From NCBI GenBank assembly GCA_002887195.1, contig PJAB01000871.1:1-19642 (forward strand): DNA of 19,642 nucleotides. Direction: 5' to 3'. Under the pieces are notes generated by a model. The model saw nothing but the letters and a program-made list of their open reading frames with translations. It made no database searches and had not been told where the DNA came from. Below are positions 121 through 19,642 of this stretch, piece after piece. The first letter of the stretch is position 1; every line of letters begins with the position of its first letter. Source of the stretch: Chrysochromulina parva. Taxonomy: Eukaryota > Haptophyta > Prymnesiales > Chrysochromulinaceae. Both the position numbers and the translations under genes were made by a program.

Positions 121-1609
121 GGAACGACATCGGCGGCGACGTGAAGCAGGCTGTGGATCTTCTTTTGAAGAGGAACGCGAAGATGGCGGCCGAGAAGGCG
201 GCGGCCGAGAAGGAGCTGGCGGAGAAGGCAGCGGCGGCCAAGAAGGCAGCCCACGAGAAGGCCGAAGCGGAGAAGGTTGCAGCGGCAAAGGCGGAGAAGG
301 AGAAGGCCGAAAGAGAGAAGGCCGCAGCAGCGACTGAGGCCCGAGTACACGAGCTGGAGAAGCAGCTCGCCGCCACGCTAGCCACGGCAAAGGCGATGGC
401 AGAGGCATCTTGGTGGCCTTGGAAACAAGGAGCGGCGGAGTCGCCGGAAGGGTCCGAGAAGGCACCGCCTTCTGAGAGACTCAACTCGGAGAGGGCTAGA
501 GCTTCTCATAGGAACGCGCCCGATCCGAAGGCGGCGGAGCTTTTCTGGAAGTCGAGGTACCGCTTCTCAGTGCCGCACGCTATCACTGAGCAGACGACGA
601 ACTACGTCAAGGGCATAGTGCGCTCGCGACTGCCAACGGGCGTGCCGTTCGAGGACGTCTACCCCAAAGTGGTCATCTCGTACGCGTCGGGTCGCCGTCC
701 GCAGGACTGCGAAGGCGCCGGCCCAGGCATGTTCTATGCGGCGGATTTCCTTGAGTTCCTCCACGAGCGCCGCGTGCCAGCCTTCAGCGGGCTGCACGTC
801 CCTGCCGGAAAAGAATGGACGGTGTTCATGCTGCGTCTCGAAATTGCCTCCCTACTTGCATGCTGATTGCCTCCCTACTTGTATGCTGGATTGCCTTTCT
901 AATTGCATGCTGATTGCCTCCCTGATTGCATGCTGGAAGGTGTTCATGCTGCGTCTCGAAATTGCCTCCCTAATTGCATGCTGATTGCCTCCCTAATTGC
1001 ATGCGGATTGCCTCCCTAATTGCATGCTGGAAGGTGTTCATGCTGCGTCTCGACGGCCGAAGGGCACAGGCTAAGGTATTGGTCGTCCTGCTGACGGCGG
1101 CGCTCTACCAGTCCAAGCCCTGCCTCGAAGAGATTAACGCGGCCGTCGTCAAACACATCCCGCTGCTACCCAGTGCGTCGCTCTCCTGATCCCCTGCTCT
1201 CCTCCTCCCTGATCCCCGCTGGCCCTGGTGATCCTCTGTTGCTGACCACGGATCGACACCTGCCCCCGCAGTACGATTTGAAGCAAAGTTACCCGACGAG
1301 AGGAATCAGTGGCCGCATCTTACTGACGAAGCTTCGGAGGTGATGATCTCGCGTGTGCAGAAGACCCTCGGCAAGGCCAATGACTTCCCAAACCCGGGCA
1401 CGATGCTCACGATGCCTTCTGCTTTGGACGATGTCCTGGGGATGATCAAGCACATTGTAGATCCGCATGGCACGAACGCAGACACGCAAGATGCGGATAC
1501 GCATCACCATGGGTACTCTGCAGAGACGCAAGATGCGGATACGCATCACCATGGGTACTCTGCAGACACGCAAGATGCGGATACGCATCACCATGGGTAC
1601 TCTGCATGA
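121..1609 (+). CDS. TIR-domain protein with coiled-coil N-terminus, 5' partial
   Basis: Modelled exons are 121-821, 1034-1172 and 1272-1609; phases agree throughout (phase 0, then phase 1). No ATG precedes the first exon, which starts after a CCCGCCGCAG acceptor, so the 5' end lies outside the window. The first part is an Ala/Glu/Lys-rich coiled coil (about nt 170-400). A TIR-like domain follows: a strand KVVISYA, a BB-loop-like stretch PAFSGLHVPAGKEW, a hydrophobic strand AKVLVVLLTAALY, then SKPCLEEI. The last corresponds to the TIR alpha-C segment that carries the conserved Cys and the catalytic Glu of NAD-cleaving TIRs. Splicing at 1172/1272 restores IPLLPIRFEAKLPDE, matching the usual TIR end, which supports the model. 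The role could be signalling, scaffold or NADase; only the fold is supported. The 3' end is uncertain: the frame ends in a His-rich 42-bp repeat that may instead be intronic, with an alternative exon at 1613 onward (WQEAQAATSSPRFKL). Confidence 0.68.
822..1033 (+). repeat. Repeat-filled intron bounded by exon copies (TIR gene)
   Basis: This intron has donor ACG|GTGTTC and acceptor GGAAG|GTGTTC. A 20-bp exon segment beginning GTGTTCATGCTGCG occurs three times: at 822, 940 and 1034. Between copies lie units of ATTGCATGCTG and ATTGCCTCCCTAATTGC. The outer two copies act as donor side and true exon start. The middle copy could serve as an alternative acceptor, but it runs back into repeat sequence. 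Confidence 0.75.
1481..1606 (+). repeat. 42-bp tandem repeat, three copies
   Basis: Three copies of a 42-bp unit start at 1481, 1523 and 1565. Read in the TIR frame, each encodes DTQDADTHHHGYSA. Each unit also ends near TACTCTGCAG, a possible 3' splice site, and GTAGAT at 1458 could be a donor. The array may therefore be coding or the body of an intron. Confidence 0.85.
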
Positions 1610-2400
1610 GTGGCAAGAAGCCCAGGCGGCAACGTCGTCGCCCCGCTTCAAGCTTCGTACCGATTTGGAGTGCGGCGTCCCTAATTTGGCAATGGCGAGC
1701 TGGAAGGCGTCCCGATTTGGAGTGCGGCGTCCCTAATTTGGCAATGGCGAGCTGGAAGGCGTCCGGATTTGGAGTGCGGCGTCCCTAATTTGGCAATGGC
1801 GAGCTGGAAGGCGTCCCGATTTGGAGTGCGGCGTGGCATTCAAGCTCCTCGCGGTCTACCTGCTCTACCTGCTCTACCGGCTCTACCTGCTCTACCTGCT
1901 CTACCTGCTCTACCTGCTCTACCGGCGATGTTCCAGCTCCGGTCGTCCAGCCGACGGAGGAGGTGCTCTCGGGGGAGGTGCTCTCGGAGGAGGTGCTCTC
2001 GGAGGAGGTGCCGAGGAGGAGGTGCCGAGGAGGAGGTGCTCTCGTTGCCCCATGCACTGTGGGGACACGCTCTGAATGGGGGTTCCGATGTGCGGGCTCT
2101 CGACATGAAAGGATGGGGTGAAATCTGGTTGACGTGGTGCGTGTGTGCGCCATCTGTGGCCGCGCGTGCGGCAGACGAGATGAGAGATATTGTGTGAGAT
2201 TTTGTGTATTAATTATACAAACACAATCGTGCTGAAAAATCGCTCGGCAGGCTCTCCATTTAACCCTGCAATGACGTCCAATTTGCCCCTGCAATTTGCC
2301 CTTCGCTTTTTCATAAATTTCCAAAAACACGTTCTAACCTCGTTGGCTCTCGCGCCTCACCCGTCAGGCCGGTCAGCCATCTCAGAGGCGAGCCCGACGC
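1610..2400. repeat. Repeat-rich flank and AT-rich spacer between convergent genes
   Basis: A 52-bp unit with CGATTTGGAGTGCGGCGTCC and CCTAATTTGG repeats four times (starts 1661, 1713, 1765, 1817; last partial). A 9-bp unit CTACCTGCT follows at 1857-1925. Then come 14-15 bp units of GGAGGAGGTGCTCTC at about 1960-2045. One frame at 1927 onward reads an acidic stretch, DVPAPVVQPTEEVLSGEV, that could be a last TIR exon, but all three frames are open. From about 2195 to 2340 the sequence is AT-rich (TGTATTAATTATACAAAC) and looks intergenic. Confidence 0.7.
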
Positions 2401-2414
2401 CGTCGTGGGCGCGG

Positions 2415-2572
2415 TTCAGCGGCCGTCGGCAGTGTACGGCCGTTGGCTCTCCATGATTGCGTTCCTCATCAGCGGCCATCGGCAGTGTACGGCCGCCGGC
2501 TCTCCTCCATGATTGCGTTCCTCATCAGCGGCCGTCGGCAGTGTACGGCCGTTGGCTCTCGCCCGTCGGCGG
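2415..2572. repeat. Tandem repeat, about 60-bp unit, three copies
   Basis: The unit contains CAGCGGCCGTCGGCAGTGTA and ends with CATGATTGCGTTCCTCAT. It is seen three times with small indels. On the minus strand it reads like an intron or 3' flank downstream of the candidate exons at 2914-2560. Confidence 0.75.
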
Positions 2573-2914
2573 CTGTGCTTTGACAGAGGCCAGCCAAACG
2601 CTGCACGGCACGGCGAGAGCGGTCGACGGGATGCGAGAGAACATATGGGTGCCGTGCTCCGTCGGCCAGGGGTTCTCCCACCTGTGGGGGGAGGGAAAAG
2701 GCGCCGTGGTGAGCACTTGCATGCAGCGGAGGGACGGGTGGAGCCAGGGGTTCTCCCACCTGTGGGGAGAGGGATAGGGCGCCGTTGTGAGCACTTGCAT
2801 GCAGCTGAGGGACGGGGTGGAGCCAGGGGTTCTCCCATACCCATGGTCCCACTCCATTGCATAGGGGGGTGCCGTGGTGGGCGCATCGGCGTCTCGACCT
2901 TCGATGAATACGAA
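2560..2914 (-). CDS. Candidate 3' exons, gene assignment uncertain
   Basis: On the minus strand, a CCTCAG acceptor opens an exon at 2914-2841 reading FVFIEGRDADAPTTAPPYAM and then EWDHG, ending at a GTATGG donor in phase 2. The next exon starts at 2681 after CCCCACAG and continues in phase as WENPWPTEHGTHMFSRIPST. Between them lie two tandem copies of exon start plus intron end (see the repeated acceptor element). I do not recognise the peptide. It may be the C-terminus of the ATP-grasp gene or a separate small gene; its end is not fixed. Confidence 0.35.
2682..2716 (-). repeat. Recurrent intron 3'-end element, copy 1
   Basis: On the minus strand this reads GTGCTCACCACGGCGC, a pyrimidine/C-rich tract, then CACAG. 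It is preceded by GCATGCAA and followed by exon sequence GTGGGAGAAC. It matches elements on the plus strand ending at 12954, 13342 and 17594. Confidence 0.75.
2760..2794 (-). repeat. Recurrent intron 3'-end element, copy 2
   Basis: This is a tandem second copy of the minus-strand element, with GTGCTCACAACGGCGC, a C-rich tract and CCACAG, again preceded by GCATGCAA and followed by GTGGGAGAACCCCTGG. The two copies sit in a tandem unit of about 78 bp that includes the start of the following exon. Confidence 0.75.
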
Positions 2915-2937
2915 CTGAGGCGGGAGTGAGCGGTCCG

Positions 2938-3435
2938 GTGTCGCGGCCGCCGCGACCACCGCCGCTGCCGCCGCTGCCGCCGCCGCCGCCGCCACCGTCG
3001 TCGCCGCCGCCGCCGCCTCGATGGCCACTGCGGCGAAGGTGAGGGCCGTCGCGGCGGTCGCGGCGGTCGTGGCGGCCGAGGTGACGTGGACGCTCGTCAT
3101 TGCCAAATTTGGGACGCTCGCGACCGACGCGGCGGCCGCGGTAACGACTGTGGCCGCACCTACCGGTATAGCATTCGCGGCGGCAAAGGAAGTGGCGGCC
3201 GTCGCGGCAGAGGCGGCGGCCGCGGCGGCCGCCGCGGCGGCGGGATCAGGTACGGCGGCGGCGGCGGCGACGGCGTCGGCAGCGGCGACGGCGGCGGCGG
3301 CGGCGGCGGCAGCGACGGCGGCGGCAGCGACGGCGGTGGTCGCGAGCGTCCCTAATTTGGAAAAGGCGAGCGTCCACGACGGCGAGGTCGCGGCAGAAGC
3401 GATCTGCGACGGCGAGGTCGCGGCAGATGCGATCT
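2938..3435. repeat. GCC/GCG triplet-rich low-complexity tract
   Basis: Imperfect GCC/GCG triplets dominate and keep several frames open on both strands as poly-Ala. At 3100 and 3350 the tract holds copies of the CCAAATTTGGGACGC / GCGTCCCTAATTTGG motif. At 3370-3435 a 30-bp unit GACGGCGAGGTCGCGGCAGA is doubled. It may be low-complexity C-terminal coding of the ATP-grasp gene or an intron; composition alone cannot decide. Confidence 0.6.
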
Positions 3436-5999
3436 GCGCGAACCGTCGGCGCTGTGCCACGTCACCACCGAGCGCCCACGAGCGCATCGCATAGTCCGTC
3501 AGCGGCATGCCAAACCAGGCCAGCATGCGCCCCGCGCCGAACCCATGCTCGATCTCGTTCAAGTGGAGCGTCGCGAGAGCATTCTCCGCACCTGGTCATT
3601 AGAGGTCATTAGAGGTCATTAGAGGTCATTAGAGGTCATTAGAGGTCGCGAGAGTATTCTCCGCACCGGGTTTGGGCCAACGGATGAAAAAGTCCGCACG
3701 GAACGCGGAGGAGCCCAGCGCCGTCGCGAGCACGCGCAGCGTCGCGCGCACCTGATGAGGGAGGCAATCAAGAGCGGCCGTCAAGAGCCATCGGGAGCGC
3801 CGTCACGAGCGCGCGCAGCGTCGCACGCACCACCTCTACGACGGTCCGGTTCATCAGTAGTCATCAGTGGTCATCAGTGGTCATCAGAGGCACGCACCAC
3901 CTCTACGACGGTCCGGTTCATCAGTGGTCATCAGTGGTCATCAGTGGTCATCAGAGGCACGCACCACCTCTACGACGGTCCGGTTCATCAGTGGTCATCA
4001 GTGGTCATCAGTGGTCATCAGAGGCACGCACCACCTCCACGACGGTCCGCCCCAGCGCATCGCCCGCGACGACGCTCTCGAGCACCATGGACGTGTGGCG
4101 CGCGCGCGCCGGTGGGCTGTGAACGTCGTGTGAACGTCGTGATTTGCATGGAGGGCGGTGTGAGGTGTGAGGTCGGGCACAGCACTCGATGTCGGTGTGA
4201 AGGCCGTGTGAAGGCGGGTGTGAGGTCGGGCACAGCGAATCCATGGCACTCAATGACACTCAAAAAGCATTCAAAGGGCATTCAATGGCACTCAACGGCA
4301 AGCACCTGTGCACGTGCGCGTTACATGAGGGCGGTGTGAAGTCGGACACGGCCACCAGAGCCTCATGTCCCTCGAGCAACAGCAGCCGCTCCATGCAGTT
4401 GGTGCGTGCCGCGAGCACCTGCACGCGCCCGCCGTTGATGCAGAGCACTGCGAGCTCCTGATCATATGGCACCTGGTCATTAGAGGTCATTAGAGGTCAT
4501 TAGAGGTCATTGGAGGTCACTTTAGGTCATTAGAGCTCCTGATCATATGGCACCTGACCCTCAATGATGAGCGTGCGGGATCCGCCCGCGGCAGCGCGAC
4601 CCGACTTGAAGATGGACTCGGCCTGCGTGAGGATGAGCTCCTCGAACCAACGGTCGCGGCTCACCTGCCAAGCTCAGAGGTCATTAGAGGTCATTAGAGG
4701 TCATTAGAGGTCATTAGAGGTCATTAGTGGTCATTAGTGGTCATTAGTGGTCATTAGTGGTCATTAGGATGAGCTCCTCGAACCAACGGGCACTGCGCAC
4801 CTCACGCACTGTCGCATCACCCGCGCTGAGAGCCTTCACGGGCGCATAGGCCCACAAGGAGCCATTCGAGAGATTGGGAGGGTTGGCAAGACGAGGCCTG
4901 GGCTCGCCGCTCGGCATTGGTACGAACCGCAGCGGCTCGATCTGGTCGAGGCTCAGGCAGAGCAGAGGTCATTAGAGGCAATTAGAGGTCATCAGAGGTC
5001 ATCAGTGGTCATCAGTGGTCATCACACCTGGTCGAGGCTCAGGCAGAGCAGGCCGCCGCTGTTGGTACCCATCGTGGGCTTGAGGACAAGGCGCTTGTGG
5101 TGGCGCAGGAGCACCTGAATGTCCGCAGAGGCCATCAAGGGCACTTCAAAGTCCGCAGAGGCCATCAGGGGCACTTCAAAGTCCGCAGAGGCCATCGGGG
5201 GCACTTCAAAGTCCGCAGAGGCCATCGGGGGCACTTCAAAGTCCGCAGAGGCCATCGGGGGCACTTCAGTCCGCAGAGGCCATCGGGGGCACTTCAGTCC
5301 GCAGAGGCCATCAGGGGCACTTCAGTCCGCAGAGGCCATCTGCGGCGCAGCGAGGGGAGAATGGCAAGGCGCCGTGGCGAGCGACTCGTAGCCGCCGCCG
5401 CGGCCGCCGCCGCTGAGCATCGTGCTGCTGGCGCCCAAGCCGAGGGTGCCACTAGCCGTGGTGGGTACAGATGCGATCGGGCTGGTACGCTTCTTCGTCT
5501 TATCGGGAGGCGATAGTCATCAGAGGTCATCAGAAGGGGATCACACCTCCAGTCGCAGCTCACAGCACGGGTCTGAGGGCGCGAGGAGCGTGCGCGAGGT
5601 CGTCAGAACGGGCACGTACTGCCCGTCGTCGTCCACCGCAAAGTCGGCCTCCGCGCCCACGTCGACGCCACCCATCGGGTCGTCGACGAAGGAGCACGTG
5701 TGCAGAGTCGGTACGATGAGCGCGATCGGCACTCCCAGCCCCACCCAGTGCTCCTTGCGCAGGGCCTTGTCGTCCGACCAAGCCCCCGCATCGCACCGGA
5801 AGGACGCTCGCTTCTGGGCCGCGTGAAAGCATCCAATCAGCTGGGACAGAGAGCTCGCGTAGTTGGCTCCTTCCGCGCTGCTCGGCCCCTTCCACGACGC
5901 ATCAGCCAGCCCAAACAGCAGGCTATGGCGATTGGCGCAAAGGTCCTCCTCGAATTGGTCCGCGGCCGTTTTCGGCGACGCAGCGCCGTCAGTGAGCAT
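3434..5999 (-). CDS. ATP-grasp domain protein, multi-exon
   Basis: Exons traced on the minus strand: 5999-5547 (ATG start), 5498-5337, 5114-5028, 4941-4801, 4664-4554, 4472-4356, one near 4130-4032, 3751-3667, and 3591 to about 3434. Phases agree at every junction except those around 5337 and 4356, which are uncertain. ATP-grasp signs in order: LVLKPTMGTNSGG (nucleotide-binding Lys and Gly/Ser loop), RTLIIEGQVPYDQELAVLCI with INGGRVQVL, then FRADFFIRW followed by LHLNEIEHG, the R-x-D-F and N-E-I-E metal-binding signature at the end of the fold. This predicts a carboxylate-amine or thiol ligase; the substrate is unknown. The first exon (151 codons) is a preceding domain that I do not recognise. 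Nearly every intron carries TGATGACC-type arrays in the sense orientation. The 3' end is unresolved beyond an Ala-rich tract. Confidence 0.62.
3592..3666 (-). repeat. Intron array of TAATGACCTC units with exon copy
   Basis: The plus strand shows about five units of GGTCATTAGA, which is TAATGACCTC in the sense of the host gene. The segment GTGCGGAGAATNCTCTCGCG occurs at the donor (from 3666 down) and again at the next exon start (from 3591 down), so the array is bounded by direct repeats. Confidence 0.8.
3752..4031 (-). repeat. 67-bp tandem repeat in intron, carrying an exon-edge copy
   Basis: A 67-bp unit starts at 3823, 3890, 3957 and 4024. Each holds the exon edge GTCGTNGAGGTGGTGCGTGC (minus sense) and several TGATGACCAC units. 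The copy nearest 4032 is the real exon end and donor. The others are intronic duplicates. Confidence 0.82.
4130..4355 (-). repeat. Degenerate repeat intron with TCACAC and CATTGAATG-type units
   Basis: In minus sense this stretch holds CCTTTGAATG/GAGTGCCATTGA units and repeated CCCGACCTCACACC and CACACCGCC segments. It separates the exon ending at 4356 from the one containing TSMVLESVVAGDALG. The acceptor is probably TTCACAG near 4130, but the phase match is only tentative. Confidence 0.5.
4473..4553 (-). repeat. Intron array of TAATGACC units with 21-bp exon copy
   Basis: The donor side (4553 down) and the next exon start (4472 down) share a perfect GTGCCATATGATCAGGAGCT segment. Between them are TAATGACCTC and variant units. 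Both junctions read CAG|GTGCCA, so the spliced product is the same wherever the joint falls within the repeat. Confidence 0.85.
4665..4800 (-). repeat. Intron array of TAATGACC units with exon copy
   Basis: Nine or so GGTCATTAG(A/T) units lie on the plus strand. The exon sequence CGTTGGTTCGAGGAGCTCAT follows the GTGCGC donor inside the intron and also stands in the next exon, starting at 4664. The intron is therefore flanked by near-identical segments. Confidence 0.83.
4942..5027 (-). repeat. Intron array of TGATGACC / TAATGACC units
   Basis: This intron lies between CTCGACCAG|GTGTGA and CTCGACCAG|ATCGAG. The segment CTGCCTGAGCCTCGACCAG ends the upstream exon and is repeated just before the acceptor, so the 3' splice site is a copy of the upstream exon's end. 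Confidence 0.85.
5115..5340 (-). repeat. 28/30-bp tandem repeat with ATGGCCTCTGCGGAC
   Basis: About eight units are present. The five nearest 5115 are 30 bp and stay in frame as MASADFEVPP. The three nearest 5340 are 28 bp (lacking TT) and carry an in-frame stop. They lie between the exon ending AAPQM and the one starting VLLRHH. An intron with a GC donor (ATG|GCCTCT) and acceptor CATTCAG at 5115 is the simplest reading. Confidence 0.75.
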
Positions 6000-6257: not shown

Positions 6258-7672
6258 ATGCATCCCGCCGTGGACGTCCGGCTCGGGCAGCTGCGCTGGG
6301 CCGCGTTGCATGTGCATCCCGCATTCGACGCCGATCATCCGAATTGGGACGAAGCCAACTGCTCGGGACTGTTGCTCACGCACGTGGCCGTGCCGACGGC
6401 CATCCAGCCCATCTGGCACGGCTCCACCACGGGCTCGCTCCGGCGGTTGCTCCAACCGTGCCGCCGCGCGTGCTCCCTCGGCCAGGTCGGCTGCACCACT
6501 CGGCAAGGGAGCGTCATCGGACGTTGCAATGCGACACACGGCGTCGAGTACGCCCACCGTCTCCCGCGGCCGGGCGAGCCGGCCGTTGTGAGCTTCAACA
6601 TGCCATCGCCGAAGCACGTTGAGGCAGTGCTTGCAGCGATCGCGGACGCGCGACCGCGGTTGTACTTTGAGTTTGAGGCGGCAGGGCACGCGCGCGTGCC
6701 ACGAGATACCATCCTCAAGGGCGTCGATGGCATGATGTCGTTTCAGCGCGATGCGCTCGTGCCGTACCCGTACTTGAGCGCCTCGCAGCTTTGGGAAACC
6801 TCGCTGCGCCGTCCAGAGCGTGGGTTTCATGAGCGCCGACCCGCCGTGGCCGCATTCGTGTCCAACTGTGGCTCCCGGTATCGCAACGAGGTGGTCGAAT
6901 TCTTACGAAACGCGTCGATCGAGGTCCACTCATACGGCGCGTGCTACCGGCCACGCCGCGCGCAGCAGGACGGAGGTGCCAACAGCTCCACGTTTGACGC
7001 TCGCGAGTTCCGCAAGTCTCAGGGCTTTGAGTCCGGGGTGAAGCCCGAATGCTTGCACTATCGCGCGATCCTTGCGGTGGAGAACTCGGCGTGCACGGAC
7101 TACGTGACCGAGAAGCTCATACAGGTGGTCGGGTGCGGGGCGGTGCCGATCGTACGCACAGTTAATGGGCTGCCGGATTACAACGGCCTGTACGGCAGGT
7201 TCCCCATGCTGGATGGAGCACGTCTTGATGCAGCGTTTGCGTCCTCCGTGCGCCAAGTGCTGACGGACCAGCGCACCTTTGAGAGCTACATGCCGTGGCA
7301 CACTCGGACGTGGGTGCCCAGCCACGAGGTCATCGTCCAAAAGGACATGCGGAACCCGCACTGCACGCTACTTGATCTTATCACCAAGAGTCGCGAGACG
7401 TCGGGGGCTCTGTCGCCCTCGCACCTCGCGTCGGACGCACCAGGTGTGTCCTCTGATGACCCCTTGAGGCCCTCTTCATCACCCTTTGTTGACCCCTTGA
7501 TTACCCTTGATGACCGCAACGCCTCGCGTCCGTTTCGCCAGGTGGCGGCGGAAGGTGTGAGACGGGCTCCAAGATGCACACGCCACGGCCCCAGCAAAGG
7601 TTTGCACGCTCGTTTGCGGGTGGCTCCTACGCGACAGCGGAAGAGGTTGCGCGGAATGGCTCGCTCGGGTGA
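6258..7672 (+). CDS. GT10-family alpha-1,3-fucosyltransferase
   Basis: Exons are 6258-7443 and 7542-7672, joined in phase 1 (438 aa). The first ATG in the open frame is at 6258. GT10 signs: FVSNCGSRYRNEVVEFL near residue 200, IEVHSYGAC just after it, then YRAILAVENSACTDYVTEKL with GAVPIV near 270-300, the conserved GDP-fucose-binding block of the family. It should transfer fucose from GDP-fucose to a glycan, normally in the Golgi. No N-terminal membrane anchor is visible, so an upstream exon may be missing, or the start may be wrong. The 98-bp intron holds CTCTGATGACC-type units. Its removal replaces a long basic read-through tail with GSKMHTPRPQQRFARSFAGG and a stop at 7670. Confidence 0.84.
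7444..7541 (+). other. Intron of the GT10 gene
   Basis: The boundaries are CAG|GTGTGT and GCCAG|GTGGCG. The interior has short degenerate units (CTGATGACCCC, TTGATGACC). Unlike most introns here, I see no exon-edge duplication except the shared GTG. Confidence 0.7.
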
Positions 7673-9105: not shown

Positions 9106-9604
9106 GCACTCAACTCAACTAGCAAGCACAAAATGTACGAACGCGGAATGGTCAGGTGATTTTTCCCCGTTTTGACCAGCATAATCAATAAATCATAACA
9201 TACAACATAGTAAATCTCCGAGATGTCATCGGAACATGATATGTACGCGGTACAAGTACGTCTAAACAACTGCTCTCGAGTTCTCTATCGTAGCCAGCCT
9301 AAAAAGGGGGAGAGTGGGCGGAGAAGAGGAGATGTATAGGCCCAGCCGCCCGCTCATACGCGCCGCAGTGCCAGTGAAGAAGCTTGCTGCCAGCGTTCAC
9401 GCTCCCCAACAACGTGAAGCGCCGCTCGATCGTGAAGCGTGCCCAATGGACCGCCCGCTGAAAAGGTCAACTCATGACCTCTAAATGACCTCTAATGACC
9501 TTAGAAATGACCTCTAATGACCACTAATGACCTCTACTGACGCCCATGGGCCTTCATGGGCCGCCCATGCTCTGAAAGGGTGGGCGCCTCTGGTGCGTTA
9601 TCCG
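9106..9604. other. Intergenic region upstream of the FkbM gene
   Basis: It begins with CTTTCTTTCTTTC near 9088-9100 and is AT-rich to about 9270. A G-rich run follows at about 9300-9335. The stretch 9468-9545 holds about seven TAATGACCTC units on the plus strand. No gene is seen. Confidence 0.5.
9468..9545 (+). repeat. TAATGACCTC array outside any modelled intron
   Basis: About seven units with variants (AAATGACCTC, TAATGACCAC, TACTGACGCC) lie on the plus strand. The nearest ORFs on both sides are on the minus strand, so this is the one cluster whose orientation does not follow a modelled gene. It could mark an unseen plus-strand exon or intron. Confidence 0.7.
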
Positions 9605-10656: not shown

Positions 10657-13600
10657 ATGTCACTGGCGCTCGCGTTCGTGCTCGTCGCCCTCGGCCAGTC
10701 GTGCACCGACCGCTCGAACGAGTGTGCCACATGGGCGGCCCTTGGCAAGTGCTCCAAGGATCGGAGCCACATGTCCCAGGAGTGTCCCTACTCGTGCAAA
10801 ACGTCGTGCGGTGGCAAGGGCGCGGCGCTGGTGGCTGCGATTGCGCTCGAACCGGTGCCGAAGGCCGACCAGTATAGACAGCTGGGCGACATTTACGCGA
10901 TCGAAGGCAAGATGGTGGCGTCCGAGCAGGCGCTACGCCTGGCCACCGAGATCGCACCCACCGACAGCGAGATCCATCGGCTTCTCGGCACGGTCGTGAA
11001 GCGATTGGGCGACGCCGAGGGAGCGCTCGCTTTGTTCCGCAAGGCTGTGCAGCTCAACCATTCGAACGCATGGGCGCACGTCAACATCGGCAACGCGCTC
11101 ACTCCGGGCGATGAGTGCTTCGCAGCGTACCGCGAGGCCATCCGTGTCGACCCGACCATGACGAACGCGTACATCAGCCTGGGCGACAAGCTCCTCATGG
11201 GAGGCCGCGCGGAGGAGGGCTTCGCGACCCTACGCTCCCTCGCGGCCTTCTCGGCGCAGCATGATCCCGGCCGTCTCTATGAGAAGCTCGCCGAACATCA
11301 AAGGGTCGTCGAGGCTGCCTATGCCCAGACCCTCGCTGACGCCAGGCGCGGCCCTCAGACCTCTGCAGTGGCTCGCAATTGGATGGAGTATGCACGAGAG
11401 GCGCTGGGCGACGACAAGTGCCACAACCCGCGCACTCGGATGGAGTGTGAAGAGAAGTGCCTTACGCCCGCATGCATTGAAGGACTCGAAGAGGCACTTC
11501 AACATGTCACCACCCATGTGCGCGTGGACGAAGCGCCGCATGGCGAGGAGTACATGTATGTACCGCCGCTCTGACGACCTCTGAGGACCTCTGACGACCT
11601 CTGACGACCTCTGACGACCTCTGATGACCTCTGATGACTTCTGATGACCTCTGATGACCTCTGATGAGCTCTGATGAGCTCTGATGAGCTCTGATGAGCT
11701 CTGATGAGCTCTGATGAGCTCTGATTGCGACGGATGAGCCCTTGATTGCGTCCTTCATCAGGTATCGCGTCATCGGCCAGTCCGAGAGCCAACCTTCCCT
11801 GATTGCGACTGATGACCCTTGATTGCCGCCTTCATCAGGTATCGCATCATCGGCCAGTCCGAGAGGCAACCTTCCCGTGCGCCGCTCGAGCCGGCGGTTC
11901 TCAAAGGAGCCGTTGATGAGGCGTGGGCGCCGTACCGGTGGGGCGCGTCGTCTCGGGCGCTCACCGAGGCAGCGGGCGAGGACGAAGTCAAAGTGACGGT
12001 GACACAGCGCGGCAAATTTGAGGTGTGAATAGATTAGATGAGCCCTTGATTGCCGCCCTCATCAGGTGTCGGAGAACGCAACCACTCGAGCTCATCTCCA
12101 TTCCCTGATTGCAACTGATGACCCTTGATTGCGTCCTCCATCAGGTGTCGGAGAACGCAATCACGCGAGCTCCGACGAGCTCCATTCGCGTCGCGGATCT
12201 GGTCGCGCTGCTCCACTCGAAGCGCGCGCTCAATACGACGCTCTACACGCGCCAGGTTCGTCAATTGCATGCTGATCGGCCGCCCCTGCGATGGATGGCC
12301 TCTCGCCTTGCATGCTGATGGCCTCCCTCATTGCATGCTGATGGCCTCTCGCCGTGCATGCTGATGGCCTCTCGCCTTGCATGCTGATGGCCTCCCTGAT
12401 TGCATGCTGATGGCCTCTCGCCGTGCATGCTGATGGCGCGCGCTGTGCTCAACACGACGCTTCGTCCAACCCTTATTTGCAGGCGACTCTCGACATGATG
12501 CCGCGCTTGCTTTCGACGGTGGCGTCCACGCCGTGGCTGGCGAACTTGCGACTGCAGGCGAGCCTGATTGCATCCCTCATTGCGAGCCTGATTGCATCCC
12601 TCATTGCATGCTGATTGCGCTCCAGCATCGTCGGCTAGTTGCATGCTGATGGCCTCCCTCATTGCATGCTGACACATGGTTGCATGCTGGCACCGCAGAC
12701 CATCACCATGTGGCTGGGCGACGGCCATTTCCACAACACGCTCCACAACGACCCATGGGACAATTTCCTCTGCCAGCTCCAAGGCACGCAACGGATGACC
12801 TTAGATGACCTCTGATGACCTATGATGACCTCTGATGACCTCTGATGACCTCTGATGACCTCTGATGACCTCTGATGACCTCTGCCAGCTCAAAGGTACT
12901 CTGCTCGGGCCGCCCGCGTGCGAGTGCTCACCACGGCGCACTTACCCCACACAGGTACGAAACACGTACTGCTCTGGCCGCCCGATGCGCGCCCTCTCCT
13001 GTATTATGCCAAGCGCCAAAATACGTTCGCCGAGTACGCGCCCTCGACGGGGGAGAAGCGCCACCGTCGTGTCATCGAGACTGACAACACCGCCGGAGTC
13101 AACATCGCCAAGGTCCTAATGACGCCCTGATGACGCCCTGATGACGCCCTAATGACGCCCTAATGACGCCCTAATGACGCCGGAGTCAACATCGCCAAGG
13201 TCGCCTTTGCACAGATGGCCTCTGATCGCCTCTGATCGCCTCGGATCGCCTCGGATCGCCTCTGATGGCCGACTGAAGGCAGTTGCCGCTCTTTCGGGAC
13301 GCCTTCACATGCCAGTGCTCATCACGGCGCCCTGTCCCACAGGTCGACTTTGGACAGTTCCCGCTCTTTCGGGACGCTTTGAAGCAGATGCGGTACGCGA
13401 AGCTCGAGCGCGGCGACTGCTTCTTCCTCCCTCGCGGCTGGCACCACGTCGTCTTCTCCGTGGTGGGGACGCCGGCGAATTTCAACTTGGCGATCAACTT
13501 CTGGTTCAATCGCGAAGCTACCCTCAAGGGCGCGAAAGAGGGCGCGGACGCAGCGCAGGCCAAGGTGGGATCGGGCGGCGCCTTGAAGCGCATCCAGGAA

Positions 13601-13735: not shown

Positions 13736-13773
13736 TTTGGGAGGCGAGCTTTTACTCTCGATCCCAAATTAGG
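13731..13773. terminator. Inverted repeat at the 3' end of the cupin gene
   Basis: CCTAATTTGGGA (13731-13742) and its exact complement TCCCAAATTAGG (13762-13773) can form a 12-bp stem with a 19-nt loop. The stop codon TAA lies inside the left arm. The arm sequence belongs to the CCTAATTTGG motif family scattered through the window. A role in 3' end formation is a guess. Confidence 0.5.
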
Positions 13774-14091
13774 CAAGTGGGCTTCTCCGCGATGGCTGCG
13801 AGATGGATGCTCATTTGATAGGCCATGGAGTCAGACCTGGGTAGTAACCTGGGGGCTGCGGCTAGCCAGCTTGCCAGGGCGCTCTAGCCATGGGACTAGC
13901 CACTTGGCGGCACTGAGGCCTGAGTGACTTCGCGGCACACTGAGGCATGCAGGAATTCTTCTGTCTTACATGTATCTTTTTATGGACACTTAGTCACTGA
14001 GTTTTGAATCGTGAACGAATCTCGTGGTTCTTCACAGAGGTGACTTCACACCAGTTCTAACATGAGTCTCGTCTGTTCCTCTTAGGCATAG
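13774..14091. other. Intergenic spacer
   Basis: This mixed-composition region is AT-rich at about 13960-14070. No repeats of the intron families are seen. TTCCTCTTAG and GCATAG just before ATG 14092 could be 3' splice sites, so a 5' UTR intron or an upstream exon cannot be excluded. Confidence 0.5.
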
Positions 14092-15192
14092 ATGTCGCCG
14101 CCCAGCCTGAAGGCTGAGGCGTTCCCCCCGCCCGTGCTCGACGCCATGCGCAAGCTCGACACGAAGAGCAACGAGCCCAGCCTCGTTCGCCAGCTATACG
14201 TGCTGGCGCTGCTCAACCGCGACGAAGCGATGCGGCGGATGCACTTCGGGCTACCACCCGACGTGGTGCTCGCGCAGCAGCCACCCTCGCTGCTCGCGCT
14301 CGCGCGCCCGCCGGCACCCTCCAGCTTCCAGTCGGCCGGCTTTCACCTTAAGCCGTCCACGTCCACGGGAGTGCGCCCTCGGCGCAGCCGCGTCTTCGGC
14401 GCGATGAGCGGCGCGGCCGAGAAGGGCGCCGACGCCGTCCAGGCCATCAGCGCGGCCCGCGAGCGCGCGATCCCGCACTTTCCGCCCGGGTACGGCGTGC
14501 CGCCCATCGGCCACGAGCGTGTGTCCACCCGCGCGCAAACCGCCGACCCGTTCTCGTCATCGTCAGCGCCCACACGCGCGCCCACGTTCACAGCGCCCAC
14601 ATCGGCATCAGGGTCTGGGCTCCACTCCACGTCTCCGAGCGCCCTGCTCGCTCGACCGCCGCTGCGCCCCGCCGACCTGGAGAATGCGTACCCCGTGCGC
14701 CTGAGCCTCTATGAGCCGCCGTCGCCCGAGCACCGATTGGGAGCCTCATCAGGCTCATCAGGCAGAGGGAAGCCCAGGCTGCCCACCATGGCGCTACCGG
14801 TACGCGAGCTGCTCGCCACGCCTCCGATGCGAGCTCCGACGCCCGGCAAGGCGCCTCTCGTCGGGTACGCGAGCTACGCCTCCCTCGCGTCTCTCGAGGC
14901 CGCCGCGAGTGAGAGCGCCGCCGTGGGCGCCGGCCGGCCGATGGCCTCGCTCAGCCAGGAGCAGCGCCAGCAGTTGAGCGGCAGCGGCGGCGGCGCCGGT
15001 CGCGCGGGCTTCTCCTTTGGCGGCGCGTCGACGGCTCCTAATATGGGTGGCGCGCAGAAGCCGAGCTTCGACGCGTGGGCGGCGGCCGAGGAGGACCTCA
15101 AGTATCGAGCTGAGCAGGAGTCGCGACGGGAGGAGATGCGCACTGTGAAGACCTCGATCGGCCGTGATGACGTGGGCACGATCGGCTTCTGA
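14092..15192 (+). CDS. Unrecognised Ser/Pro/Ala-rich protein
   Basis: A 366-aa uninterrupted frame runs from ATG to TGA. The N-terminal 50 or so residues look folded and helical (PPVLDAMRKLDTKSNEPSLV, RQLYVLALLNRDEAMRRMHF). The middle is low-complexity Ser/Pro/Ala, likely disordered. The C-terminus is a charged helix with AEEDLKYRAEQESRREEM, ending in VKTSIGRDDVGTIGF. No catalytic motif, signal peptide or membrane segment is visible. The frame has strong third-position GC and no internal repeats, which supports real coding. The function is unknown. Confidence 0.62.
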   Translation: MSPPSLKAEAFPPPVLDAMRKLDTKSNEPSLVRQLYVLALLNRDEAMRRMHFGLPPDVVLAQQPPSLLALARPPAPSSFQSAGFHLKPSTSTGVRPRRSRVFGAMSGAAEKGADAVQAISAARERAIPHFPPGYGVPPIGHERVSTRAQTADPFSSSSAPTRAPTFTAPTSASGSGLHSTSPSALLARPPLRPADLENAYPVRLSLYEPPSPEHRLGASSGSSGRGKPRLPTMALPVRELLATPPMRAPTPGKAPLVGYASYASLASLEAAASESAAVGAGRPMASLSQEQRQQLSGSGGGAGRAGFSFGGASTAPNMGGAQKPSFDAWAAAEEDLKYRAEQESRREEMRTVKTSIGRDDVGTIGF

Positions 15193-15448
15193 CGAAACTA
15201 CCAGATCGCGTGATCTCAAAGCGTCTGAGGTGATGCCGTGGCATCCTTGGATGGCGGTGAATGTGATGTGTGTCTCTGTCAACTATCTTAATCATATAAC
15301 TCAAACTGTCTCTGTCTGTGATTTCTAACACAGCACAACCGTCGCCCTTCTAAACCGCCCCCGTGCGATACCCGCCATGGTGGTACAGTGTCTGTGTCTG
15401 TGTGAATGTGCGTCTGTGTGATTTCTTAACACAGCCGTCCCATCGGGA
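15193..15448. other. Intergenic spacer with GTCTGTGTCTGTG repeats
   Basis: It contains GTCTGTG-type simple repeats and two near-copies of TGTGATTTCTNAACACAGC, at about 15317 and 15417. The second could be a 5' UTR splice acceptor or a duplicated promoter element. Confidence 0.45.
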
Positions 15449-15722
15449 ATGCCGCGAGTTTGGAGTTTGCAAGTTTGTCGCGCCGCGCAAGCGTGGGCCG
15501 TCGCGCGCTCGAGGCTTATGAAGAACTTCTTTGGCGGCGCGAAAGGGCAAGAGGGCTACGCCACGTACAAAGAGCCGCCCAAGCCCAAAGCTGCAGCACC
15601 GGCACCGGCCGTGCCACCGCCACGTCCGTCCGCGCCAATCACCGCAGAAAAGGTAAAGTCGCCCTTCGCATACCCTCCAGCAGCCGGCGCCGCCGAACCG
15701 TCGGGGTTGGACTCTTGGACGC

Positions 15723-15771
<49 letters not shown>

Positions 15772-18700
15772 AGCCGATCCGCAGATGGAGAAGGCCATCG
15801 CCGCGCAAGCGGAGATGCGAAAGCTTCGTCACCTGAACGAAGCGGGGCCAGCGCATCGGCGGCTTGGGGAGGCGCATCCCGAGTTGCATCCGCAGCGGCT
15901 GCAGACGGAGCGTGAGATCCTTGCGGATCTGGAGGCCGAGATCCTCGATCGAGAGTGCCTGGAGAGCGAGGCCGCGAACGCCAAAGTGGAGTACGAGAAC
16001 GAGCTGCGCGATCTTCTGGCCGAGGCCGCAGGCGCTTTTGAGGCGTTGCGGGCGCAGCTGCCACCTGGGGCGCTGCCCGATCCGGCGCCTACACCCGCCG
16101 TCACACCCGCCATGCCCGCCGCAGCGCCGGTCGCACCGCCAGACCTTCTCCGCGGCTTGGGCGCTCAGTACGACGCCCCGACCGCGACTCCGGTGCTCGG
16201 GACAGCGCCTCCGGCTGCGGCGGCTCCGCTCGGAGATATGTTCGGAGATATGTTCGGAGATTTGCTGGGCGGCGGCATGGGCGGCGGCATGGGTGGGGGC
16301 ATGGGCGGCGGCATGCCCAGCGGCATGGGCGGCGGCATGGGCGGTGGCACTGGTGGCGGCATGGGTGGTGGCATGGGTGGGGGCATGGGTGGGGGCATGG
16401 GTGGGGGCTTCGGAGGGGGCTGGAGTGGTATGGCAGGCGCTGAGATGGGCGGCATGGGTGCTTCTATGGGCGGCATTGGCGGGGCCCAGCAACCGAGCGT
16501 GCTGCCACGTGGCACGCCCGTCACGGCGCCTATGCCCACGACGGCGCCCATGCTGCCACGTGGCACGCCCGTCAGCGTCCACAGCCTTCGCGGCGCGGCA
16601 CATCACAACGGCAAGTCAGGCACCGTCGAAGAGTATGACTGTGCTTCGGATCGGTACATCGTCCGCCTCGCCGACGGGGAAGTCTTGCGCATCAAGCTCG
16701 AGAATCTGCACTGCGTGCAACAAGGGCAGCCGGGCGGCAGCGCGGGCGGCAGCGCGGGCGGCAGCGCGGGCGCCGTGATGGGCGGCAGCGCCGGCGCTGT
16801 GATGGGCGGAAGCTCCGGCGCCGTGATGGGCGGCGGCGCGGGCGCCGTGATGGGCGGCATGGGCATCGGCATACCCGGCGGCATGGGCGGCGGCATGGGT
16901 GGGGACATGGGTGGGGGCGTGGGTGGGGGCATGGGCGGGGGCTTCGGTGGGGGTTGGGGTGGTATGGCGCGCGCTGAGATGGGCGGCATGGGTGCGCCTA
17001 TGGGCGTCATGGGGGGCGGCATGGGCGGCGGCACTTCCGCCATGCCGACGGCGCCCCTCCTTTCGGATCTCTTTGCACGCGAAACGAAGCCCATCGCGAC
17101 GCCCGCCACGGCGCCTTTGCCCACGACGGCGCCCGCTCGAGCGCCTCCATTGGCGTCGTCCAGTGGCGGCGGCGGCGGCGGCGGCGGCGGCGCGGTGGAC
17201 AGTGACGATCCATTCGCAGGGCTCTTCGCAGGCATAGCGCCGCCGCCGGCTACGTCACCGTCGGTCCCGCGGCGAGTTTCGTTAGACCCGCCGGCTACGT
17301 CACCGTCGGTCCCGCGGCGAGTTTCGTCACCGTCGGTCCCGCGGCGAGTCTCGTTAGACCGTCCCGCGAGTAGCAGCAGCGGCACTGGCGGGCTCGATCC
17401 AAATTTGGAAGGTCGGGCCGATCTCATCGCACCTACCAAATTTGGGTCAGAGATGGTCGTCAGTCGGTCGGAGGAGGCACATACGATCACGTGTGTCGAG
17501 CAGATGGCGCCGGCGGCGCAGGTACCGACCTACCTTCCCAAGCCCTTTGCGACTGCATGCATGTGCTCACCACGGCGCGTCCTCTTCCCCACAGGAGGCC
17601 ATCCGAATGCTCCAAAAGGGGTGTCAGGCTCTCAAGTTTGGCAGGCAGGGCAAGCCTCACTCGGTGCGACATAGTGCATGCTGATTGCCTGCCCCATTGC
17701 ATGCTGATTGCCTCCCTCATTGCATGCTGATTGCCTCCCCCATTGCATGCAGGTGCTCTTCCGCCTGTCCGAGGACCTCCAGACGTTATCCTCATTGCAT
17801 GCTGATTGCCTCCCTCATTGCATGCAGGTGCTCTTCCGCCTGTCCGAGGACCTCCAGACGTTATCCTGGGAGAAGAAGGGCCTGCAGGGTCTCGGCAAGG
17901 ACATGGCGATGGGTTTCGGCAAGATGATGGGCGGTGGGTTCGCGAAGAGCGCCGACACGGCGCGCCGAGTCGACCTGAGTACTTTGGTGGAGGTGCTGCA
18001 GGTGCGTGCTTGCCCTGATGGCATCTGATGGCGTCTGATGGCGTCTGATGGCGTCTGATGGCGTCTGATGGCGTCTGATGGCGTCTGATGGCGTCTGAGT
18101 GCGTCTCTCATCAACTGCTCGTCGTGATGGCGTCTGATTGCGTCTCTCATCAACTGCTCGTCGTGATGGCGTCTGAGTGCGTCTCTCATCAACTGCTCGT
18201 CGTGCTTCAGGGCCCTGAGAGCAATGTCATTCGACGCAACCGCGGCGAGAAGCCGATTTCGTCCGCGGACGCGGGTGGCGGCACGGTGGAGGGCGACTAC
18301 TCGTCATACAAGGAGGCCAAGGAGAACTTGTGCCTCTCGCTGCTCTTCGTGAGCAACGAGAAGGATGCCGACCGTGACTCGCTCGACATCCAGTGAGAGA
18401 GCGACGAGGGCTTTGCATGCTGATTGCATGCTGATTGCATGCTGATTGCATACTGATTGCATGCTGATTGAATCTTTGAGCACATTCTGATTGCACCCTT
18501 CATCAGATGCGAGAGCGACGAAGCATTCATCAGCTGGGTCGTGGGGTTCCAAGCCCTCATGGCGCTGCATGAGGCGCTGAGCGGTGGGTTCGATGCGCTC
18601 TCGAGCGTGCTGCATGCTGATTGCATGCTGATTGCATGCTGATTGCATGCATGCTGAGCGGTGGGTTCGATGCGCTCTCGAGCGTGCTCTCTGAGTGCAT

Positions 18701-19642
18701 GCTGATTGCATCTCTGAGGACGTGCTGATGGCCCCCTTCATCAGGTGGGGCTGAGGGGCTTGCGAGTGTCCGTGTCGAGCGCGAGGCCGCCCGTGCGCGG
18801 GCCCTCGCGCGGAGTGCGCCGCAGGTACGCAACTGATGACCTCTGATGACCTCTGATGACCTCTAATGACCTCTGATGACCTCTAATGACCTCTGATGAC
18901 CTCTGATGGCCTCTAATGACCTCTGATGACCTCTGATGACCTCTGATGACCTCTGATGACCTCTGATGACCTCTGATGACCTCTGAAGGCCTCTGAGGAC
19001 CTCTGAGGACCTCTGAGGACCTCTGAGGACCTCTGAAGACCTCTGAGGACCTCTGAGGACCTCTGATGACCTCTGATGACCTCTGAAGGCCTCTGAGGAC
19101 CTCTGAGGACCTCTGAGGACCTCTGAAGACCTCTGATGACCTCTGAAGGCCTCTGAGGACCTCTGAGGACCTCTGAGGACCTCTGAGGACCTCTGAAGAC
19201 CTCTGAGGACCTCTGAGGACCTCTGAGGACCTCTGATGACCTCTGAAGGCCTCTGAGGACCTCTGAGGACCTCTGAGGACCTCTGAAGACCTCTGATGAC
19301 CTCTGAAGGCCTCTGAGGACCTCTGAGGACCTCTGAGGACCTCTGAAGACCTCTGAGGACCTCTGAGGACCTCTGATGACGTACGAGGGCCCTCGCTCGG
19401 AATGCGCCGCAGCTCTACCAAGCGATGCTGGAGCGCGAGGAGAAGCAGATGCAGCAGATGATGCGAGAGGCTGAAGAGGAAGCCAACCGGCAGTATGAGG
19501 CCTCGCGTGCGCGTGCAGAAGCGGCGGATCGTCAAGCTTTCGAAGCGAGGGTGAGTTCCGATGATGACATCTGATTGCATCTGATTGCATCTGATGGCGG
19601 ATCGTCAAGCTTTCGAAGCGAGGGTGAGTTCCGATGATGACA
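15449..19642 (+). CDS. Coiled-coil, Gly/Met-rich, KOW/SH3-like and PRAF-type PH domain protein, 3' partial
   Basis: Exons are 15449-17521, 17595-17663, 17828-18001, 18211-18392, 18507-18583, 18745-18824 and 19413-19550, continuing off the window; all junction phases agree. The start may instead be Met 15518 (MKNFFGGAKGQ). Order of parts: Pro/Ala-rich start with an (AP)n run; coiled coil (about residues 110-205); two Gly/Gly/Gly/Met tracts; an SH3/KOW-like module (VSVHSLRG ... HHNGKSGTVEEYD ... RYIVRLADG ... LENLH, about 372-425); a disordered Ser/Pro stretch; then a PH-like domain over exons 2-5. It has AIRMLQKGCQALKFGRQGKP, FRLSEDLQTLSWEKKG, SLDIQCESDEAFISW and VVGFQALMAL, closely resembling the PH domain of plant PRAF (PH-RCC1-FYVE) proteins. 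A Glu/Gln/Arg coiled coil follows (LEREEKQMQQMMREAEEE). A membrane or trafficking adaptor is inferred. Confidence 0.75.
16264..17040 (+). repeat. Coding Gly-Gly-Gly-Met repeat tracts
   Basis: Two blocks of GGCGGCATGGGC-type units (about 16264-16425 and 16876-17035) encode (GGGM)n. They flank the KOW/SH3-like module, and a GGSAG/GAVMGG block precedes the second. The two blocks share the nearly identical tail GGMGASMGG / GGMGAPMGV, so one probably arose from the other. Confidence 0.85.
17522..17594 (+). repeat. Short intron ending in the recurrent acceptor element
   Basis: This 73-bp intron runs from CAG|GTACCG to CCCCACAG|GAGGCC in phase 0. Its 3' half (from 17563) is GTGCTCACCACGGCGC plus a C/T-rich tract, preceded by GCATGCAT. 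It is the most compact example of the element. Confidence 0.8.
17664..17827 (+). repeat. ATTGCATGCTG array intron with duplicated exon start
   Basis: The donor is TCG|GTGCGA and the acceptor GCATGCAG|GTGCTC. Units of about 23 bp (CATTGCATGCTGATTGCCTC) fill it. A 39-bp copy of the next exon's start stands at 17753, 75 bp before the true start at 17828 and with its own GCATGCAG acceptor. The 75-bp insert is in frame and free of stops. Confidence 0.87.
18002..18210 (+). repeat. TGATGGCGTC array intron with a 44-bp higher unit
   Basis: About eight perfect TGATGGCGTC units are followed by three units of about 44 bp containing CTCATCAACTGCTCGTCGTG. The last of these leads into the acceptor TGCTTCAG. 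Confidence 0.83.
18393..18506 (+). repeat. TGATTGCATGC array intron
   Basis: Five TGATTGCATGC units (one TGATTGCATAC) run over about 18417-18470. The donor region GTGAGAGAGCGACGAG and the acceptor-side exon start ATGCGAGAGCGACGAAG are diverged copies of each other. Confidence 0.8.
18584..18744 (+). repeat. TGATTGCATGC array intron with duplicated donor region
   Basis: The junction GCTGAGCG|GTGGGTTCGATG with its following sequence occurs at 18577 and again at 18653. The acceptor TTCATCAG|GTGGGG joins in phase 1 to give ALSGGAEGLASVRVEREAAR, a coherent helical sequence. Confidence 0.78.
18825..19412 (+). repeat. Large 10-bp minisatellite intron with higher-order structure
   Basis: Positions 18841-19380 are 54 consecutive units of exactly 10 bp (CTCTGATGAC and variants CTCTGAGGAC, CTCTGAAGAC, CTCTGAAGGC, CTCTAATGAC) without one indel. 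From 18981 they form five blocks of 10, 6, 10, 6 and 8 units, each starting with CTCTGAAGGC and ending with CTCTGATGAC. The acceptor region GGGCCCTCGCTCGGAATGCG repeats the upstream exon's end at about 18799-18824. Confidence 0.9.
19524..19642 (+). repeat. 46-bp direct repeat across an exon-intron junction
   Basis: Bases 19524-19569 and 19597-19642 are identical, including 27 coding bases, the donor AGG|GTGAGT and the start of the intron. They are separated by TGATTGCATC units. The window ends at the last base of the second copy that can be seen. Confidence 0.88.

Follow-up and report, generated by a model that had tools for sequence, protein, structure and literature searches.

Where the bulk of introns comes from is an old question. 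Several described systems bear on it. Symbiodinium-type introners carry a 3' splice site, and the target-site duplication (TSD) provides the 5' splice site (Gozashti et al. 2022, PMC9860276). The introner families characterised earlier have TSDs of 3-9 bp, and the search in that survey, which discarded low-complexity families, demanded similarity that starts at most ten bases inside the intron at each of its boundaries (PMC9860276). In Daphnia, neointrons were ascribed to staggered breaks, and internal repeats were reported in 55 of 90 (PMC4202315). Tandem genomic duplication of an AGGT segment, the Rogers 1989 model, has been applied to the potato RdRp gene (PMC4974935, PMC3443670). Rogers and Bendich in 2025 described direct repeats (DRs) at 213 introns, with a length of 4-30 bp (mean 11.4 bp) and a similarity of 71-100% (PMC11782384). 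Candidate introners have also been reported from mirusviruses (PMC12768974). In this study, we analysed a stretch of 19,642 nucleotides from the haptophyte Chrysochromulina parva (contig PJAB01000871.1 of assembly GCA_002887195.1, hereafter the window). Many introns of its genes are bordered by duplicated exon edges, which may still record how the introns were inserted. We propose that these introns are introners, that is, intron-making cassettes that entered exons with a long TSD.

Repeated exon edges and dispersed cassettes

An earlier note on this sequence had named 15 sites in the window where introns would hold extra copies of exon-edge sequence. DRs were found near all 15 (19 coordinate pairs tested), so the introns do hold such copies. 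The DRs were 18-78 bp long and 88-100% identical. On the gene strand, GT or GC...AG lay exactly in register across the DR at 12 of the 15 sites (11 GT, 1 GC), and the reported use of AG/GT (the slash marks the splice junction) is supported. No such register was seen at 13286/13363, 18577/18653 or 19524/19597. Three of the 12 DRs (11762, 12066 and 17753) are duplicates of an existing acceptor plus exon start, with the true donor further upstream. The repeats also stood well above shuffled sequence: the window contained 36 non-periodic DR pairs with a length of 15 bp or more and a spacing of 35-420 bp, whereas 100 dinucleotide shuffles gave 0.07 on average and 1 at most. DRs were likewise present outside called genes or within coding repeats (1478-1606, 1656-1834, 2416-2560, 2665-2837 and 17240-17354), so a DR alone does not mark an intron.

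The usual single-cassette layout is exon, DR copy 1 starting with GT, a cassette ending with CAG, and DR copy 2, which continues as exon. A single cassette is 36-77 bp long and contains a branch-point-like CTNAY motif (CTGAT, CTAAT or CTCAC), pyrimidines and the terminal CAG. The cassettes fall into two genome-wide families. Family 1 is built of 10-, 11- or 23-bp units with CTGAT or CTAAT (TGATGACCTC, TGCATGCTGAT, TTGCATGCTGATTGCCTCCCTCA) and frequently ends with CTCCCTCATCAG. Family 2 consists of GCATGCAAGTGCTCACCACGGCGCC, followed by pyrimidines and CACAG. In the assembly searched (45.07 Mb, 2199 contigs), exact copies, counted whether intronic or otherwise, numbered 1621 for TRATGACCTCTRATGACC, 588 for TTGCATGCTGATTGC, 730 for TGATTGCCTCCCTCATCAG and 513 for GTGCTCACCACGGCGCC, and the reversed-pattern controls gave 0 each. 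The family-2 pattern with CCACAGGT within 2-26 bases was present at 276 places in the assembly (reversed pattern, 0). Together with the unrelated domains found at the junctions, these copies indicate that introns of unrelated genes have a sequence in common, as introners do. The cassettes are also oriented. Within window gene intervals, the 10-bp motif occurred 65 times in sense and never in antisense, with 3 more copies outside genes, and GCATGCTGAT occurred 24 times in sense and never in antisense; the genes lie on both DNA strands. TCATCAG (7 sense, 55 antisense in window genes) was not used for orientation, as its complement CTGATGA belongs to the array unit.

Single-cassette introns hold two copies of the exon segment and one copy of the cassette, which argues that the cassette was inserted. 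A DR around a single dispersed cassette is, as far as sequence can tell, the signature of insertion with target-site duplication, and we put the probability of the introner explanation at about 0.7. A cassette would enter an exon, and about 25 bp (15-48 bp) of the target would be duplicated as the TSD. The cassette would be half an intron, bringing a branch point, pyrimidines and a CAG 3' splice site and, as a rule, no 5' splice site. The duplicated exon segment would supply the donor through the GT that begins copy 1, and the CAG at the cassette end would directly precede the same GT in copy 2. Splicing from the GT of copy 1 to the AG before copy 2 would remove copy 1 and the cassette and restore the coding sequence exactly, so that the insertion would be silent. 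In a minority of introns, the predicted AG/GT is internal to the DR or coincides with its right edge. At two loci (L033, L073), no DR base precedes the junction, so the AG must have come from the cassette. Where the AG lies inside the DR (L034, L050, L055 and window positions 3823-4049), the target would give both AG and GT.

After insertion, units of DR plus cassette, or of acceptor plus exon start, would duplicate in tandem and lengthen the intron. The earlier note had linked these repeats to intron gain or growth by tandem duplication of AGGT-containing segments. The part on growth is supported, for units containing the junction lengthen introns at 822-1053, 3823-4049, 11739-11876 and 17715-17867 and at L054, L056 and L065. 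Later duplication likewise accounts for 12043-12172 and for L048, L067, L077 and L085. We therefore regard tandem duplication of DR plus cassette units as a real second process. The part on gain is not supported: duplication of an AGGT exon segment as the sole maker of an intron predicts an intron of exon sequence only, and the interior was found to be a dispersed cassette.

Reading frames and domains agree with the predicted junctions. Among the 16 family-1 cases, excision across the DR gave 11 in which the frame on either side was open for 200 nt or more. Without splicing, the frame in 10 of these 11 ran into a stop within 200 nt of the donor on one side or both; L057 was open in any event. 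Pfam was run on 8 of the 12 translated spliced proteins (L040, L044, L052 and L056 were left out), and in 6 of the 8 a domain spanned the junction. These domains were RRM_1 (L033), a CCHC knuckle (L034, zf-CCHC_4 stretch 140-155), UCH (L054), chalcone-synthase C (L055), MutS_III (L057) and TPM (L065). In L030 and L060, the junction fell outside Pfam domains.

Length, frequency and counter-evidence

Measurements were made on 44 DR introns (14 family-1 targeted, 12 family-2 targeted, 12 untargeted and 6 from the window), which were chosen for having a DR and describe its length, not its frequency. Two of the 16 family-1 sense cases (L048, L067) had been removed as secondary duplications. The DR length was 25.5 ± 6.4 bp (range 15-48), with 37 mismatches at 1120 positions (97% identity). 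The pattern is repeated across the assembly, and with 1083 of the 1120 aligned positions identical, the copies appear to be young. The splice junction was at most 4 nt from the left DR edge in 30 of the 44 introns and at the right edge in 5. These varied positions argue for selection among many insertions over one exact targeting rule. In 35 of the 44, the first 14-47 intron bases are a locus-specific copy of exon sequence, and similarity between such introns does not start within ten bases of both boundaries, as the Gozashti search demands.

Correlations were calculated on the 33 single-cassette introns, the 11 multi-cassette introns being left out. The lengths of DR and cassette were negatively correlated (r = -0.53, p = 0.001); by family, r was -0.71 in family 2 (n = 17) and -0.46 in family 1 (p = 0.08, n = 16). 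The length of the whole intron was less variable than under independence of its parts (permutation p = 0.0005 for all, 0.0008 for family 2 and 0.036 for family 1). Family-2 introns measured 78.6 ± 5.7 nt. The distance from the donor to the branch A was 48.8 ± 5.8 nt and that from the branch A to the 3' splice site 27.2 ± 2.5 nt (n = 13), where the branch point is presumably that of the CTCAC motif, by the general consensus. The relation between DR and cassette length fits selection for a spliceable donor-branch geometry among many insertions. It would be a natural measure of the spacing that the spliceosome accepts.

Frequency was estimated from three samples. For family 1, 40 stretches were taken from listed motif places with DRs disregarded, giving 45 array clusters. 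Of these 45, 23 were spanned by a non-periodic DR (14 bp or longer), compared with 53 of 900 random positions, a control that was unmatched for repeat density. GT...AG was in register across the DR in 16 of the 45 in sense and 3 of the 45 in antisense, and at 17 of the 900 control positions. The family-2 sample comprised 21 elements at the 20 loci that head the pattern list; the pattern demands CCACAG/GT, so that a GT behind the acceptor is built in, and makes no use of the DR. In 12 of the 21, the start of the downstream exon recurred before the cassette and scored higher than any of 400 grafted controls (maximum 16); 1 tied. Among these 12, L077 and L085 are tandem duplicates that include the cassette, and L082 has GG for GT in copy 1. 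In the untargeted sample (20 stretches of 10 kb each), 12 DR introns with a family core were found in 6 of the 20 stretches, hand-picked from 31 rows; the 19 rows dropped were coding repeats, antisense readings, tandem duplicates or other cores. Family-2 cassettes were present in L009, L017, L023 and L027 of this sample. Crudely scaled from the untargeted stretches, DR introns would number some thousands per genome.

Several of these results weigh against the introner explanation. About half of the sampled cassettes had no significant long DR: 22 of the 45 family-1 clusters had no spanning DR, and 8 of the 21 family-2 elements fell below the control maximum. The unmatched family-1 control and the choice of the 44 introns by their DR belong here too, and three of these 44 (L074, L079, L083) were at or below the grafted-control maximum. 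Cassettes without a long DR may be old or may have been made otherwise. AGGT at DR junctions exceeded local windows by no more than a factor of about two (21 against 11.2 in the random set, 32 against 17.0 in the targeted set and 10 against 6.0 in the window). GT...AG was also in register on the opposite strand at 4 of the 15 window DRs. The strand test by frame restoration gave 9 sense and 9 antisense of 27 random cases, 8 and 6 of 17 targeted cases, and 3 and 1 of 5 window cases; it fails to separate the strands because antisense frames are open in a G+C-rich genome. The 10-bp motif was found in only 1 of the 20 untargeted stretches (L018), which points to an uneven spread of family 1 or to a mixed assembly. 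A CTP synthase encoded in another untargeted stretch (L015), where neither of two family-1 motifs occurs, had its closest named matches in the haptophytes Haptolina brevifila (76%) and Calcidiscus leptoporus (64%); this speaks for a haptophyte host provided that a single organism was assembled. Finally, the GT10 intron described below is the clearest case of presence and absence, yet it has no long DR.

Introns of the window genes

The features of the window are collected in Table 1. Their splice sites rest on frames, domains and homologues, a small self-trained ab initio gene model being too weak for splice calls. Judged in this way, the window introns are plausibly real.

Table 1. Predicted introns and repeat features of the window
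Feature	Positions	Strand	Repeats and cassettes
TIR-like gene intron	822..1033	+	Donor GTGTTC at 822, acceptor GAAG before 1034
TIR-like exon-start DR, three copies	816-841, 934-959, 1028-1053		CTGATTGC-type cassettes between
ATP-grasp-like intron	3592..3666	-	DR 3570-3596 / 3645-3671 (27 bp, 2 mismatches) flanking TCTAATGACC array
ATP-grasp-like intron	3834..4034	-	26-bp exon segment x4 (3823-4049; 67-bp unit x 3.4)
ATP-grasp-like intron	4473..4553	-	Identical 24-bp DR 4452-4475 / 4533-4556; 57-bp cassette; CAG/GT in both copies
ATP-grasp-like intron	4665..4800	-	DR 4630-4666 / 4766-4802 (37 bp, 4 mismatches); TAATGACC array
ATP-grasp-like intron	4942..5027	-	Identical 24-bp DR 4942-4965 / 5028-5051
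GT10 fucosyltransferase intron	7444..7541	+	TGATGACCCC (family-1) units; no long DR
Cupin intron 1	11556..11838	+	TGATGACCTC array; acceptor + exon start tandem-duplicated (11739-11799 / 11816-11876)
Cupin intron 2	12023..12144	+	Acceptor + exon start duplicated (12043-12093 / 12122-12172)
Cupin intron 3	12256..12482	+	TTGCATGCTGATGGCCTC arrays; long exon-edge DR not found
Cupin intron 4	12558..12698	+	GC-AG; CTGATTGCATCCCTCATT units; long exon-edge DR not found
Cupin intron 5	12784..12954	+	GC-AG; upstream exon end copied (12767-12784 / 12879-12896), then GTGCTCACCACGGCGC...CACAG cassette
Cupin intron 6	13113..13342	+	Upstream exon-end copy 13091-13115 / 13178-13202; ends GTGCTCATCACGGCGCCCTGTCCCACAG; second copy, of downstream exon, within same intron (13280-13302 / 13355-13377)
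PH-gene intron 1	17522..17594	+	73 nt; GTGCTCACCACGGCGC cassette; no long DR
PH-gene intron 2	17664..17827	+	GCATGCTGATTGC arrays; acceptor + exon start duplicated (17715-17792 / 17790-17867)
PH-gene intron 3	18002..18210	+	CTGATGGCGT array + 39-bp repeats
PH-gene intron 4	18393..18506	+	TTGCATGCTGA array ending CATCAG; short GAGAGCGACGA copy at both edges, by eye
Probable PH-gene intron, 588 nt	18825..19412	+	55-copy CTGAGGACCT array; upstream exon-end DR 18792-18824 / 19380-19412, 4 mismatches; outside 844-aa model, which stops at 18611
Family-2 cassette outside called genes	2665-2837	-	78-bp tandem unit, 2.2 copies, CACAG/GTGGGAGAACC
Exon-derived array	5121-5340	-	30-bp repeat, ~7.5 copies; some units 28 bp
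Array outside any called gene	9474-9541		AATGACCTCT array

The names TIR and ATP-grasp are those of an earlier reader, and Pfam searches of these two genes gave no match. In the ATP-grasp-like intron 3834..4034, AG/GT lies within every 26-bp copy, and the array is read as a secondary tandem duplication of DR plus cassette. The 28-bp units of the array at 5121-5340 break the frame, so part of this array is intronic or the gene is damaged.

The cupin gene without its six introns forms a 634-aa frame that ends at a stop, and Cupin_8 (E = 5.6e-35) extends across five of the six junctions. The homologue P0001, a metagenomic cupin protein of 49% identity in one uninterrupted frame, aligned gap-free at the five junctions covered by Cupin_8, that of intron 2 among them; it comes from a 2150-bp metagenomic contig and could derive from RNA. 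The sixth junction falls in a gap of this alignment. An exon-edge copy was present in four of the six introns, and two of the six (12558, 12784) start with GC, not GT. The PH gene minus four introns encodes 844 aa without a stop, and a PH-like domain (PF25406, E = 5.4e-7) was found in the spliced part. At position 7444 of GT10, 9 of 10 homologues (49-70% identity) continue uninterrupted to the conserved tail, and the metagenomic protein P0050, 100% identical to the GT10 product, reads into the intron.

Three motifs were also scanned for in IMG/VR, where 0, 14 and 2 stretches matched. One of the 14 contained a full cassette and the other 13 had no cassette flanks; the two stretches for the third motif were low-G+C records with no further likeness. 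The full cassette lies at the end of a prophage-like contig (L095:4368-4554), with an exact 25-bp family-2 core, CACAGGT and a repeat with a 10-bp spacer array. This contig is probably chimeric.

Alternative origins and comparison with known systems

Three other explanations were weighed. In a gain of the Rogers type, tandem duplication of an AGGT exon segment makes both splice sites, and minisatellites grow inside later. The register of GT or GC...AG in 12 of the 15 window sites, the AG/GT register in 16 of the 45 family-1 clusters and the existence of tandem units containing junctions agree with it. The interior is a different matter. Only the DR part repeats the adjoining exon; the 36-77 bp core is dispersed cassette sequence, whose motifs occur hundreds of times in the genome. 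Moreover, single-cassette introns have two exon copies to one cassette, and at L033 and L073 the AG arrived with the cassette. We consider this origin very unlikely. A model of growth only, in which old minisatellite introns copied exon edges by replication slippage or gene conversion without any gain, is somewhat less improbable, though still unlikely. It would account for the tandem-duplicated acceptor plus exon start at 11762, 12066 and 17753 and in L048, L067, L077 and L085. Slippage, however, duplicates the cassette along with the exon edge and cannot give exon copy, one cassette and exon copy. Growth alone also has to face the missing introns of distant relatives at five cupin positions (P0001) and in GT10 (9 of 10 homologues), where loss is possible. 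That the repeats were created or misplaced by the assembler is hardly credible to us. Repeat-rich DNA does assemble badly, and an identical 47-bp repeat at 19523-19642 stops exactly at the contig end, which may be an assembly-graph effect. The same anatomy, on the other hand, was found on other contigs, in 23 of 45 family-1 clusters, 12 of 21 family-2 elements and 6 of 20 untargeted stretches, it fits reading frames and domains, and the DR lengths vary from 15 to 48 bp.

If the introns are introners with a long TSD, the candidate chemistries of insertion would be the repair of staggered nicks or breaks, or target-primed reverse transcription. A classical cut-and-paste element is disfavoured, because the DR is long and variable (15-48 bp, not the short fixed TSD of an introner resembling miniature inverted-repeat transposable elements) and no clear inverted repeats were seen in nine family-2 cassettes, whose terminal inverted matches of 3-5 bp compare with shuffle means of 3.1-4.1. 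The data suit two other routes, staggered-break repair with copied filler and target-primed reverse transcription of intron RNA. In the former, overhangs of about 25 nt at a double-strand break would be filled in, giving the DR, and the gap patched with copied DNA of intron 3' ends. It is a sub-mechanism of the introner explanation and not an exclusive rival, and we think it somewhat less likely than not. It suits the variable DR, the lack of clear terminal inverted repeats and the filler, up to about 23 nt long and not conserved, that separates the DR from the family-2 core. In about half of the cassettes sampled, terminal exon bases recurred at the far end of the intron, and the same topology, with repeats of 4-12 bp, was described for Daphnia neointrons in the part of that account available (PMC4202315). 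Against it stands that the filler would have been drawn repeatedly from two cassette families, which selection for 3' splice sites explains only in part.

Alternatively, a mobile 3'-splice-site cassette might spread by excised intron RNA, whose 3'-OH after the CAG would prime or template insertion where exon DNA is nicked. The TSDs of about 25 bp, with the GT that turns into the donor, would then be left by target-primed reverse transcription or by reverse splicing. We think this RNA route rather unlikely. Target-primed reverse transcription would give a fixed 3' end, 5' truncation and a variable TSD. A CAG end, a variable DR and filler before the core were seen, but the family-2 core usually starts with GCATGCA, which speaks against random truncation. 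The constant CAG end favours reverse transcription, but it may also reflect selection. RVT_1 (reverse transcriptase) was found at at least five places in the search. If the RNA route is true, the birth of an intron needs half an intron, the target supplies the rest, and donor-branch spacing filters the survivors.

As far as the cited portions of the papers go, the Chrysochromulina introns come close to several known systems. With Symbiodinium-type introners they share a dispersed family, the division of labour between element and TSD, and a restored coding sequence. Symbiodinium-type elements have 4-bp TSDs and terminal inverted repeats, whereas the duplications here are about 25 bp long (15-48) without clear inverted repeats, and the cassettes are short and often expanded to arrays of 10-23 bp units, unlike the Symbiodinium type (PMC9860276). 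The introner elements of Amoebophrya are also repeated introns with DRs at their boundaries; they differ in DRs of 3-5 nt, inverted repeats and mostly non-canonical splice sites (PMC7789003). The exon-edge repeats of Daphnia are 4-12 bp long, and a shared cassette family was not found in the Daphnia account as available (PMC4202315). In potato RdRp, a unit of intron 3' side and exon start was duplicated, as here at 11762, 12066 and 17753 (PMC4974935). What sets the single-cassette introns apart from tandem genomic duplication is the dispersed sequence inserted in them. Rogers and Bendich likewise propose that introns are insertions flanked by DRs; compared with theirs, the DRs here are longer (mean 25.5 bp), 97% identical and in splice register (PMC11782384). 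An introner with TSDs this long was not found in the open-access literature searched, as far as the texts were available. Judging from the cited description of its method, a Gozashti-type search would miss introns that start with about 25 bp of locus-specific exon copy. If this reading of the method is right, the present type lies in a blind spot of the main introner survey and may be common and uncounted. Intron gain by introners is known, and the proposed variant with a long TSD is new; in it, insertion point, duplicated length, splice geometry and survival can be read directly in one genome.

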